From the IMG/VR virus record IMGVR_UViG_3300030389_001300, positions 1 to 30,514 of that record: a stretch of 30,514 nucleotides of DNA; one strand, given 5' to 3'. Made by a program: the position numbers and the translations under genes. Position 1 is the stretch's first letter, and each line of letters begins with the position of its first letter. Source of the stretch: a virus. The notes under the pieces are model-generated. The model had not been told where the DNA came from. It saw only the letters and a program-made list of their open reading frames with translations, and did not search any database. Of this stretch, positions 14,383 through 22,749 are shown piece after piece.

Positions 14383-14511
14383 ATGGATTTATTAAATCAC
14401 TTACTAGGAACTTGTGGAGAATCCCACATAAATATTTATCATATTATTCTATTTTTTGTATCTGCTTATATAAGTGGATATTTATTATATTACCTTTCAA
14501 AGAATGGCTAG
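14383..14511 (+). CDS. Small membrane protein (42 aa)
   Basis: ATG 14383 to TAG 14509-14511. The N-terminus NHLLGTCGESHINIYHI resembles a short conserved protein with LLG.CGE.H.N found in lysis or early gaps of flavobacterial phages. Residues about 20-38 (IILFFVSAYISGYLLYYL) form one membrane segment. It starts two bases after the holin stop, and its end overlaps the start of the next gene. A role in lysis is plausible from position only. Confidence 0.65.
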   Translation: MDLLNHLLGTCGESHINIYHIILFFVSAYISGYLLYYLSKNG

Positions 14512-14638
14512 AAAAACAAGCATACACATATACAAAAGTAATACCAGAAAACGCAAAGGCATACATTCCAAGACAAAAAGTAGTAAAGTAAAATCAAGCA
14601 AAAATTATTTAAAAAGATACAAAGGTCAAGGTAGATAA
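14504..14638 (+). CDS. Small very basic conserved protein (44 aa)
   Basis: A Lys/Arg-rich protein with RKRKGIHSKTKSSKVKSSKNY, ending in YLKRYKGQGR. This pattern (G.HSKTK.S....KNY...Y.GQGR) is one I recall from many Bacteroidota phages, with no assigned role. It might bind nucleic acid. It overlaps the previous gene by 8 bases and is the last gene before the 172-base non-coding gap. Confidence 0.7.
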   Translation: MARKTSIHIYKSNTRKRKGIHSKTKSSKVKSSKNYLKRYKGQGR

Positions 14639-14648
14639 AATATTTTTA

Positions 14649-14656
14649 TATATTTG
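14649..14656 (+). promoter_or_regulatory. Possible host-type promoter -7 box in the main gap
   Basis: TATATTTG fits TAnnTTTG, with a 15-base palindrome beginning three bases after it. No TTTG lies about 19-20 bases upstream, so the -33 element is missing or degenerate. A transcript from here would cross the mirror repeat. Confidence 0.4.
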
Positions 14657-14658
14657 CC

Positions 14659-14673
14659 TTTGCTTAAAGCAAA
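14659..14673. repeat. Palindrome next to the -7 box
   Basis: TTTGCTT and AAGCAAA form a perfect inverted repeat around a single central A (14666). It lies immediately after the possible promoter at 14649-14656, where an operator would sit; alternatively it forms the first hairpin of a transcript. Confidence 0.75.
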
Positions 14674-14746
14674 ACTTGTGCAACCTAATAAAGTCGGAAG
14701 GCACTTGGATCAGGTAAATAATTTATTTTCTTTTCTAGTAGGGACT

Positions 14747-14788
14747 TTTCTTTTCTTTCTTTTTGGTTACTTTTTCTTTCTTTTCTTT
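14747..14788. repeat. Perfect homopyrimidine mirror repeat (possible H-DNA)
   Basis: Bases 14747-14764 (18 bases, only T and C) are the exact mirror, not the complement, of 14771-14788, separated by GGTTAC. Mirror-symmetric pyrimidine tracts can fold into an intramolecular triplex. It lies in the largest gap, just before the NinG-like gene. Confidence 0.9.
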
Positions 14789-14797
14789 AATATTAGA

Positions 14798-14805
14798 TAT
14801 ATTTG
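14798..14805 (+). promoter_or_regulatory. Possible host-type -7 box directly before the NinG-like start
   Basis: TATATTTG ends six bases before the GTG at 14811, so a transcript started at the usual distance would begin at or near the start codon, i.e. leaderless. No TTTG is found at -33, so support is partial. Confidence 0.4.
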
Positions 14806-14810
14806 ATAAC

Positions 14811-15215
14811 GTGAAAAAACCTAAACGCAAAACACTCATCAACAAACTAGACAGGATATTTTCAGAATATATAAGAAAGAGGGATGCAGATAAAAAAGGT
14901 TTTGTTAAATGTATAACATCTGGTAAGAAATATCACTATACAGAAGTAGATGCAGGACATTTCATATCTCGTAAAGAGATGTCTACTAGGTGGAACGAGG
15001 ACAATGTATATGCACAGTCAAGGTACGATAACAGATATAGGTATGGTAGGCAGTATGAATATTCTTTAGCTTTAGAAAAGAAAAAAAAAGGTTTACCTAA
15101 ACATCTATACAAACTATCTAAAGAAACAGTAAAGTATAGCATTGCAGACCTACAAGAGCTAATAGATAAATACAAAAAAAAACTTGATATTGAGAATAAA
15201 AGATTATCTTTGTGA
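14811..15215 (+). CDS. NinG-like recombination protein with degraded zinc site
   Basis: A 134-residue protein starting at GTG 14811. An in-frame TTG at 14763 would add hydrophobic residues read from the pyrimidine tract and is rejected. The pattern LDRIFSEYIRKRDAD, CITSGKKYHY, DAGHFISRKEMSTRWNEDNV, YEYSLAL matches phage NinG (Rap-like), which processes recombination junctions. NinG proteins usually have CxxCGK and QCxxCN zinc ligands; here these read C34-I-T-S37 and QS70RYD73N, so three of four cysteines are gone. Histidine in AGHF is kept. The N-terminal domain of longer NinG proteins is also absent. It is followed by two hairpins. Confidence 0.72.
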   Translation: MKKPKRKTLINKLDRIFSEYIRKRDADKKGFVKCITSGKKYHYTEVDAGHFISRKEMSTRWNEDNVYAQSRYDNRYRYGRQYEYSLALEKKKKGLPKHLYKLSKETVKYSIADLQELIDKYKKKLDIENKRLSL

Positions 15216-15217
15216 TC

Positions 15218-15235
15218 CTTACCAACTTCGGTAAG
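15218..15235 (+). terminator. Hairpin after the NinG-like gene
   Basis: CTTACC/GGTAAG with loop AACTTC, followed by AGTTTTGTTTTT. The stem is short (6 bp) and the T run is broken, so it is a weak terminator or an RNA end-stabilising hairpin. A stronger one follows. Confidence 0.5.
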
Positions 15236-15247
15236 AGTTTTGTTTTT

Positions 15248-15281
15248 AAAGGGGGGGATTAATTTTCTCCTCTTTTTTTTT
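15248..15281 (+). terminator. Intrinsic terminator before the early gene block
   Basis: An 11-bp stem (15248-15258 with 15265-15275, three G-U pairs, seven G in a row on the left arm) with a 6-base loop is followed by T residues to 15281. The promoter -33 element for the early block overlaps its T run. Confidence 0.82.
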
Positions 15282-19913: not shown

Positions 19914-20619
19914 TAAATTCTACTATGGAGAACTAAACAAATTAGCATTGAGCAGTTCATCACTCAAACTGTTACTATCAAGTCCAAAGACTTACAAGTA
20001 TGTTACAGAATATGGTAGTCCAGAAACACAACCATTGAGAGATGGTCGTTTGGTACATCAGGCGATCCTAGAGCCACAAAAATTTAGTGAACAGATATTT
20101 GTAAATGTATCTTCCAAGAATACAAAAACATACAAAGAAGCTAGAGAAAAATATGGAGAGGTATATACAAGACTTGAAAAAGAAAACGCAGAGAAAATAG
20201 CAGATGCTTTTTTTAAGAATGAACACGCAATGAAACACATCACAGATTGTGATTTTGAAGTATCTGCAATAGGTACAATACAAGGTTATCCATTCAGAGG
20301 TAAAGCAGATGTGTTGAAAAAAGATGGCATCGTAGACATCAAGACCACAACAGGTGGGGTAAAAAACTTTTATCATTCAGCAAAGAAATATTCTTACGAT
20401 GTTCAGTGTTATATATATTGTCAGCTCTTTGATGTAACATATTTAGACTTCAAGTTTGTAGTTATAGACAAAGGATCATTAGACATTGGGGTTTGGAACT
20501 GTTCGGAGGAGTTCTATTTGGAAGGGGAACGAAAAACAAAAGAAGCAATACAAATATTTGAAAAGTTCTTTATAGAAGGACAAGACATAGATAATTATAT
20601 AATAGAAGGAATATTATGA
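19849..20619 (+). CDS. RecB-like PD-(D/E)XK exonuclease
   Basis: A 256-residue protein of the phage PDDEXK group (DUF3799-like). It has ALSSSSLKLLLSSPKTYKY (33-51), RDGRLVHQAIL with His70, FRGKADVL with Asp154, GIVDIKTT with Asp163-x-Lys165, and YDVQCYIYCQLF with Gln186 and Tyr190. These are the ordered motifs of RecB-type nucleases, which degrade or process DNA ends for recombination. ATG 19849 gives the family-like beginning; it overlaps the previous gene by 65 bases. No annealing partner (Erf, RecT) is visible. It is coupled by a 4-base overlap to the DnaA-like gene. Confidence 0.78.
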   Translation: MIQLLDGRNYSKKELLKKMVDDKFYYGELNKLALSSSSLKLLLSSPKTYKYVTEYGSPETQPLRDGRLVHQAILEPQKFSEQIFVNVSSKNTKTYKEAREKYGEVYTRLEKENAEKIADAFFKNEHAMKHITDCDFEVSAIGTIQGYPFRGKADVLKKDGIVDIKTTTGGVKNFYHSAKKYSYDVQCYIYCQLFDVTYLDFKFVVIDKGSLDIGVWNCSEEFYLEGERKTKEAIQIFEKFFIEGQDIDNYIIEGIL

Positions 20620-21008
20620 CTAAAGCAGATAAGATAGCAAAAGAAATAAACAAAATAGCAAAGGTAGATGTATTCCAGAATACAAGAAAAAGAGAAGTAG
20701 TAGAGGCAAGATCATTACTATCATTCATACTATACAAATACGAAAAGATGACACTACAAGAAATAGGCAATCTATTCAAACAAAAGGGTAGATCAGGCAA
20801 TCACACAACAGTATTACATTCCATCAAGAGCTTTGAAACTCATAAAAAATACAATAGTAGAATACAAGATTGGTTGTTAGACATCACACTCAAACTGAAA
20901 AACAATGATGCAAAGAAAGAGTTTATAAAACACAAGGTAAACTTTCTTAAAAATAAAGATGTAGATAAGATTGCAAAGCAAGTAGATAAAATGACACAAA
21001 ATAAATAG
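20616..21008 (+). CDS. DnaA domain IV-like DNA-binding protein
   Basis: A 130-residue protein whose residues about 17-77 match the C-terminal DNA-binding domain of bacterial DnaA: EARSLLSFILYKYEKMTLQEIG and GNHTTVLHSI (62-70), the motif that reads DNA in DnaA (DHTTVLHA). The ATPase domain is absent. It might bind a phage origin, or act as a decoy for host DnaA sites. The C-terminus is Lys-rich. It ends 74 bases before the terminase small subunit, and a phage-type promoter motif lies between. Confidence 0.8.
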   Translation: MTKADKIAKEINKIAKVDVFQNTRKREVVEARSLLSFILYKYEKMTLQEIGNLFKQKGRSGNHTTVLHSIKSFETHKKYNSRIQDWLLDITLKLKNNDAKKEFIKHKVNFLKNKDVDKIAKQVDKMTQNK

Positions 21009-22502: not shown

Positions 22503-22529
22503 CAGAAGTAAAAAAAAAACTTATTATAT

Positions 22530-22560
22530 TTTGTTAATTAAAAAAAAAGTTGTATATTTG
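22530..22560 (+). promoter_or_regulatory. Host-type promoter before the small ORF cassette
   Basis: TTTG at 22530-22533, 19 bases, TATATTTG at 22553-22560. It is a full match to the Bacteroidota primary promoter, in an 92-base gap after the terminase gene. It would express the small ORFs to the terminator at 23289. Confidence 0.78.
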
Positions 22561-22594
22561 TAAAATAAATAAAGTTTAATTAAAAACAAAACAA

Positions 22595-22723
22595 ATGAAA
22601 ATAACAGAAAAACAAATACAACAAAGAATGAAAGATCTTGGTACATCAAGAGAAGAAGCAATCCGATCTATTAAGGTAGGTGAAAGACTAAAACAAAGAT
22701 TGCAAAAGGGTGGTTGGATATAG
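22595..22723 (+). CDS. Small helical protein (42 aa), first of cassette
   Basis: ATG 22595 to TAG 22721-22723. It is basic and helical (KQIQQRMKDLGTSREEAIRS, GERLKQRLQKGGW). The spacing of hydrophobic and charged residues could form a small helix-turn-helix or a helical hairpin, but no family is recognised. It is the first gene after a host-type promoter. Confidence 0.62.
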   Translation: MKITEKQIQQRMKDLGTSREEAIRSIKVGERLKQRLQKGGWI

Positions 22724-22749
22724 ATTAAGATAATTAAAAACAAAATAAT

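Follow-up and report, generated by a model that had tools for sequence, protein, structure and literature searches.

The perfect mirror repeat at positions 14747–14788 of the window, which is the whole 30,514-nucleotide stretch of a marine phage analysed here (IMG/VR record IMGVR_UViG_3300030389_001300), may be the 3′-terminal part of a small module that is transcribed and acts as an RNA-primed start of DNA replication, selection on a triplex included. We give this reading a probability of roughly 45%. One part of it, selection on a triplex geometry, either as H-DNA or as an RNA-DNA triplex, is very likely in its own right, judging from the concerted change of the two mirror arms across relatives. 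The mirror terminates a module that consists of a TAnnTTTG promoter, a hairpin, the TTGGATCAG motif, a third arm (arm 0), a G-rich linker, arm 1, the loop and arm 2. In the window, its parts and the promoter-like element that follows are:

14649–14656, + strand: TATATTTG, the window's match to TAnnTTTG, the Bacteroidetes-type -7 promoter element, from which the predicted small RNA would start
14659–14673, + strand: 5′ hairpin TTTGCTTAAAGCAAA of the predicted RNA, present in the MFE structure
14678–14704, + strand: main hairpin with the stem GTGC (14678–14681)/GCAC (14701–14704), inner CC/GG pairs and the loop TAATAAAGTC, predicted from covariation
14705–14716, + strand: conserved TTGGATCAGGTA motif directly 3′ of the main hairpin, found in both phage groups described below (P1 and P2), in distant phages and in host copies
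14726–14735, + strand: arm 0, TTTTCTTTTC, which mirrors the start of arm 1, with T-runs that track each other in 71 distinct loci
14736–14745, + strand: G-containing linker TAGTAGGGAC between arms 0 and 1, in relatives a run of at least two G (or G with A)
14747–14764, + strand: arm 1, TTTCTTTTCTTTCTTTTT, exact mirror image of arm 2
14765–14770, + strand: spacer GGTTAC between arms 1 and 2, a loop of 4–6 nt in relatives
14771–14788, + strand: arm 2, TTTTTCTTTCTTTTCTTT, exact mirror image of arm 1
14798–14805, + strand: second promoter-like TATATTTG directly after the mirror, leading into the early gene ninG, in window-type phages and conserved in ninG-linked relatives

The first-pass annotation had described a perfect 18-base C/T mirror around GGTTAC, and this was confirmed for 14747–14764 against 14771–14788. 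H-DNA requires mirror symmetry (PMC4666352). Both arms are 18 nt long and consist only of C and T, in keeping with the tract and symmetry of H-DNA, and the loop is short as well, with 6 nt in the window and 4 or 6 nt in nearly all relatives with perfect arms (spacers GTCC, ACTC, ACCC, GGTTAC and GTTTAC). The repeat is the longest perfect mirror of the window, the next independent one having 12 nt. For the window alone, an 18-nt perfect mirror was obtained with P = 0.001 when both tracts were shuffled and with P = 0.04 when the order of the T-runs was permuted. Taken by itself, the window sequence is thus only mildly unusual and no more than suggestive, and since these values are only weakly significant, the decision rests on the comparison across relatives.

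The window is a complete circular map, the last 100 bases of which start as an exact copy of the window's start, and nearly all of its genes lie on the + strand. Upstream of the mirror are the lysis genes (M15 peptidase endolysin and holin), followed by a basic ORF of 44 amino acids ending at 14638; downstream are the early genes, the first of which is a NinG-like gene at 14811. That the mirror lies in the largest non-coding region, as the first-pass annotation had stated, is doubtful because the 44-aa ORF (14504–14638), which is conserved in relatives, shortens the true gap to about 172 nt (14639–14810); a longer example is the stretch 22503–22749, in which the + strand has no 60-aa ORF. The 44-aa ORF (MARKTSIHIYKSNTRKRKGIHSKTKSSKVKSSKNYLKRYKGQGR) is very basic, is kept beside the module in both orientations and has no family match. 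A coding role of the mirror was rejected as the downstream gene varies (another gene in L024 and L009, ninG or a convergent gene elsewhere).

A search with the NinG-like protein yielded 30 loci. The mirror was perfect in 25 of the 26 loci with 78–96% identity in this protein, and the exception, L010, starts too close to show the mirror. Seven close relatives of the L003 type carry TTTTCTTTTTCTTTTCTTTT-GTCC-TTTTCTTTTCTTTTTCTTTT, while other NinG-linked relatives carry TTTTCTTTTCTTTCTTTT-GGTTAC-mirror or TTTTTCTTTTCTTTCTTTTT-ACTC-mirror. Loss of the symmetry in close relatives had been named beforehand as the observation that would speak against an H-DNA element; the opposite was found, and the perfect mirror was kept even with entirely different arms. 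This retention of symmetry through arm replacement strongly supports the predicted triplex.

Larger samples were obtained in two ways. A mirror-first pattern search of IMG/VR gave 107 stretches, and upstream of these a conserved block was observed, namely TATATTTG, a hairpin, AAACTT-stem-loop-stem-TTGGATCAGGTA, ATTTTCTTTTCTAG..GGGACT and the mirror. A control pattern in direct order matched 26 stretches against the 107 just mentioned, and 20 of them were mirror matches too. The follow-up search used only the hairpin sequence (versions P1 and P2) and ignored the mirror. Among 159 non-identical loci retrieved in this way with enough downstream sequence, 109 had a perfect mirror of at least 16 nt. 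The perfect mirrors comprised 43 arm/loop combinations and 29 different arm sequences, the latter being the safer number for loci that are metagenomic, derive mostly from uncultured phages and are related to each other, so that counts are not independent. Given these 29 different arms, both arms change in concert.

For 38 distinct arm pairs, imperfect ones included, the mean mirror match was 17.05 of 18 positions. It was 12.9 when right arms were permuted among loci (maximum 13.9 in 5000 permutations) and 12.6 in direct order. Such compensatory change is what is expected of H-DNA. A direct repeat or gene conversion was rejected as its source since the direct-order match was no better than the permuted one, and with direct and inverted copying excluded, triplex pairing would explain the mirror match. 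The same comparison bears on the view that the tract has no structural function and is low-complexity, T-rich DNA, symmetrical by chance or by mutation. The single-genome P values of merely 0.001–0.04 would allow for this, but concerted change over 38 distinct arm pairs and the direct-order control contradict it, and copying yields direct or inverted repeats, never mirrors. This view is hardly credible, and the chance origin in a T-rich tract that the first-pass annotation had considered is rejected.

The residual arm mismatches are mostly C against G. L174 and L190 contain an A/G mirror cell; if the duplex is formed by the left arm, A/G corresponds to the classical G.TA triplet. A few arm pairs hold A/A or G/G at mirror positions, which lie outside the standard triplet code and would make poor classical triplets. 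Many matches of the mirror pattern in genome contigs turned out to be unrelated low-complexity repeats. Multi-copy CTTTTCTTTCTTTT-G(G)TNC-TTTTCTTTCTTTTC repeats were noticed in ruminant Clostridia and Selenomonadaceae MAGs (L252, L256, L257, L260–L262, L264–L266 and others). In Clostridia, the copies are followed by an inverted copy; they look like small repeat elements to which the phage module is unrelated.

The sequence upstream of the mirror points to a structured RNA. In the main stem, the four base pairs were paired in 100% of the cells over 38 distinct sequences, compared to 68% when the whole structure was shuffled. The covariation score was 0.831 against 0.195 for the shuffled structure and at most 0.118 for slid structures. 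All four pairs were changed on both sides and G-U pairs were present, as is typical for structured RNA; the search pattern had left the stem columns unfixed. A hairpin is also found at the site of the 5′ hairpin in P2 phages, with three compensatory changes in one pair. Using cmsearch, the main hairpin was detected in the window with an E-value of 5.7e-16, the window having contributed to the model. Besides the host copies, the covariance model scored six phage loci that are distant from the window. The mirror alone had earlier retrieved five of the six (L098, L109, L046, L041 and L057, with L041 and L057 being marginal), and hence hairpin and mirror predict each other. The predicted fold of the window RNA was no more stable than shuffled sequences (z = -0.2), and the evidence for the RNA is covariation rather than fold stability; by this measure, the stem is under selection. 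No match above the gathering score was found for the window or its relatives in Rfam.

In the window (14690–14713) and in P2 loci such as L031 and L040, the hairpin together with TTGGATCA looks similar to the 3′-terminal part of 16S rRNA, with helix 45, its GGAA loop and UUGGAUCA or UGGAACA; the P2 hairpin has a GGAA tetraloop as well. The similarity is possibly mimicry or coincidence.

Of the 115 distinct upstream regions taken from loci with hairpin and mirror, 99 contained TAnnTTTG, with nearly fixed spacing. This motif equals the -7 consensus of Bacteroidetes promoters (PMC7366714). Between the hairpin and the mirror, arm 0 adds a third pyrimidine arm. Its last T-run correlates with the first T-run of arm 1 with a rho of 0.76 and equals it in 72% of 71 distinct loci, and its mean mirror extension in the same loci was 7.4 compared to a permuted maximum of 6.8 in 2000 permutations, both values being uncorrected for phylogeny. 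All loci with perfect mirrors of at least 16 nt had the pyrimidine-rich strand as the RNA strand, and the mirror was always located 3′ of the RNA.

This order of promoter, RNA and T-rich tract also looks like the layout of a small RNA gene including its 3′ terminus, and the module could accordingly be a terminator or insulator in which the mirror ends a regulatory small RNA and blocks read-through, with the triplex, in place of a terminator hairpin, halting RNA polymerase in the U-rich tract. The constant RNA-like sense of the pyrimidine strand and the fresh TATATTTG promoter right after the mirror of window-type phages would fit such a role, as would the result that the mirror site showed neither an inverted repeat nor a hairpin terminator, in contrast to the region after ninG with its two ordinary hairpin terminators (15218–15281, the second with a GGGGGGG run). 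But a phage that has ordinary hairpin terminators would not need a special one, and neither the third arm nor the satellite-like copies described below would be explained. We regard termination as rather unlikely to be the main role.

The module was recognised by sequence in many phages of marine Bacteroidetes, and host chromosomes have it in satellite-like elements. In window-type phages (P1), it is co-directional with the genes, whereas in P2 phages the genes on both sides are opposed to it. Its site between lysis and early genes is common to both groups, and P2 genomes that are complete or nearly so show synteny with the window. The fixed position with flipped orientation indicates an autonomous module and not a leader of the next gene. 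Its boundary position would suit a replication fork barrier, in which the triplex stops the fork and thereby ends replication or avoids head-on conflicts with transcription; mirror tracts of pyrimidines and purines are established to arrest polymerases in vitro. The varying orientation relative to the genes argues against this, and a barrier would need no promoter, covarying RNA or satellite copies, which makes it very unlikely.

Other settings and versions of the module were also observed. In L046, it lies between ORFs that resemble parts of a DNA polymerase, whose proximity also fits a replication role; in L235, TerS-like, TerL and portal genes come directly after it (identities by eye in both). 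L235 further contains a far longer near-perfect mirror with arms of about 32 nt at 1186–1360, directly upstream of the TerS-like and TerL genes. About 20 loci have the hairpin without the pyrimidine mirror, which means that some versions of the module can do without it. In the ninG-linked L184, L193 and L199, the pyrimidine mirror is replaced, about 30–60 nt after the hairpin, by GGGGGG-TAA-GGGGGG or GGGGGGG-TAA-GGGGGGG. These equal G-runs flanking TAA are possibly a purine-type mirror with the same job. L134, L169 and L204 are hairpin homologues without the mirror that share a downstream hairpin and ATATGGGGG(GG)AG; this part may be a different 3′ part of one RNA family. In the isolated phage FpV9, the terminase of which is 49% identical, no such element was found within the 28.7 kb examined. 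Only short and weak matches resulted when the phage collection was searched at the nucleotide level. Scanning 299 genomes related to G002 for the family yielded a single truncated relic (L320), the rest being known or unconvincing matches.

A scan of 84,980 genomes detected the module in two single-cell genomes of marine Bacteroidetes, AG-891-I06 and AG-892-D16, with two copies each and thus four in total. Each of the four has a small TerS-like gene 0.25–3.1 kb downstream that reads in its direction. The copies are located inside long arrays (L253, L263, L267 and L269; L315–L318) of single ORFs with repeats of about 100 bp between the ORFs, resembling integron cassettes. The arrays also contain a repeated 5′ sequence and nuclease-like cargo (NucS and a weak PD-(D/E)XK match). 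One host module is 97% identical to the module of phage L032 over 70 nt. Pfam and PHROGs gave no name for the host TerS-like protein; it is read as TerS because its relative in L235 precedes TerL. With this identity taken from the synteny in L235, the host copies combine a packaging gene with a cis element common to phages, and they are probable minimal phage satellites. Charybdis elements, which have no terminase, were considered and found to be different. PICMIs are phage satellites (PMC10803314) and, like the host copies, small chromosomal elements of marine bacteria that depend on phages, a dependence that is presumed for the host copies. What sets the host copies, as putative satellites, apart from PICMIs is their occurrence in Bacteroidetes and the combination of a TerS-like gene with the mirror module within a cassette-like array.

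The linkage to TerS-like genes after all four host copies and in L235 could also mean that the module is a packaging signal (pac) at which the terminase small subunit begins packaging. In the window, though, terS is 6.4 kb away from the module, and in the P2 phage G301, terL is at a distance of about 10 kb. Six phage records, including phages with a near-identical module, were without a match to the TerS-like protein of the satellites, and this combination fits a common origin better than a common recognition site for TerS. Contig ends at the mirror were not clearly enriched either (13 compared to 8.4 expected). A role as pac is therefore quite unlikely.

A start of replication, the reading that we prefer, is suggested by the order of promoter, RNA and tract, by the neighbouring replication and recombination genes (NinG, SSB, DnaB-like and a DnaA domain) and by the satellite-like elements that keep the module. 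As in R-loop origins, a promoter-like element lies upstream of a candidate hybrid-stabilising tract. In the proposed mechanism, RNA polymerase would start after TATATTTG (14649–14656) and produce a structured RNA, as the promoter element and the stem covariation suggest. At the G-rich linker and the pyrimidine arms, this RNA would hybridise to the purine template strand. One pyrimidine arm, of the DNA or of the nascent RNA, could then fold back and form Hoogsteen pairs with the purine strand of the other arm to give H-DNA or an RNA-DNA triplex; the mirror arms and the 4–6 nt loop would permit this fold-back, and the triplex would keep the strands apart. The concerted arm changes point to selection on the geometry, and the formation itself is predicted. 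The anchored 3′ end of the RNA would finally prime DNA synthesis by the phage replisome, and satellite-like elements would carry the module in order to be replicated by a helper phage. The comparative data establish, as far as conservation and covariation can, that mirror geometry and RNA stem are selected, that the promoter element is conserved and that the context is autonomous and mobile. The triplex-stabilised R-loop of nascent pyrimidine RNA, G-rich linker and mirror that primes replication is what we infer from them.

Several observations count against an origin: no consistent skew switch, no cluster of DnaA boxes, hairpins that lack the mirror, a few A/A or G/G cells and a window RNA fold no more stable than shuffled sequences. 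Cumulative GC skew, which the first-pass annotation had suggested as a check, did not change its sign at the mirror; since the skew tracks the coding strand, it is uninformative for an origin. Skew at fourfold sites was without a consistent switch at the element, the sites being too few or inconsistent. The five DnaA boxes of the window are no excess, and none is near the mirror. The window also encodes a phage protein with DnaA domain IV (Bac_DnaA_C; 20616–21008) near the terminase genes, which is kept in P2 phages too.

To our knowledge, H-DNA has long been discussed mainly as a possible structure or a cause of instability, and proof of natural selection on such a structure has been hard to obtain. 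The phage element shares homopyrimidine mirror arms of at least 18 nt and a loop of 4–6 nt with H-DNA mirror repeats. It differs in keeping its symmetry by concerted change over many phages and in being tied to a covarying RNA hairpin, all of which was deduced here by sequence comparison. Origins of the ColE1 type and those of T4 and T7 are transcription-primed R-loop origins with a promoter, a structured RNA, a G-rich stretch and a tract that holds the hybrid. The phage module has the same parts, the tract being a candidate for holding an RNA hybrid, whereas those origins have neither pyrimidine mirror arms nor a third arm; the likeness is one of layout, and priming by the phage module is proposed. 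At GAA/TTC repeats of eukaryotic cells, an R-loop plus a triplex has been described as an H-loop that blocks replication (PMC6356060). The same combination on one homopurine/homopyrimidine tract is proposed here, but for a short evolved element with a 4–6 nt loop and a pyrimidine RNA. The intrastrand triplex motifs of bacteria (TM/ITxF) are likewise repeated, conserved and intergenic; they are G/C-rich with all segments including purines on one strand, and the authors found none on phages (PMC4666352), in contrast to the mirror, which consists of C and T only and is located in phages. H-DNA is a known kind of structure. For the conserved RNA-plus-mirror module, no description was found in Rfam or in the searched open-access PMC literature, and by that measure it is new.

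The dozens of differing yet mirrored arm pairs beside a covarying hairpin, in phages as well as in chromosomal elements, are evidence analogous to compensatory base pairs in RNA. They make the biological role of the triplex directly testable with short plasmid inserts, for which the natural variant arms are ready controls. The finding suggests that there is an RNA family not yet described and, probably, a group of minimal phage satellites in marine Bacteroidetes. More tentatively, and with the odds against it at present, the module might represent a new class of replication start in these phages and their minimal satellites, in which the small RNA and the mirror tract form an evolved RNA-DNA H-loop that anchors the primer. 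If this is true, selection for a DNA triplex would be visible as compensatory mirror change.
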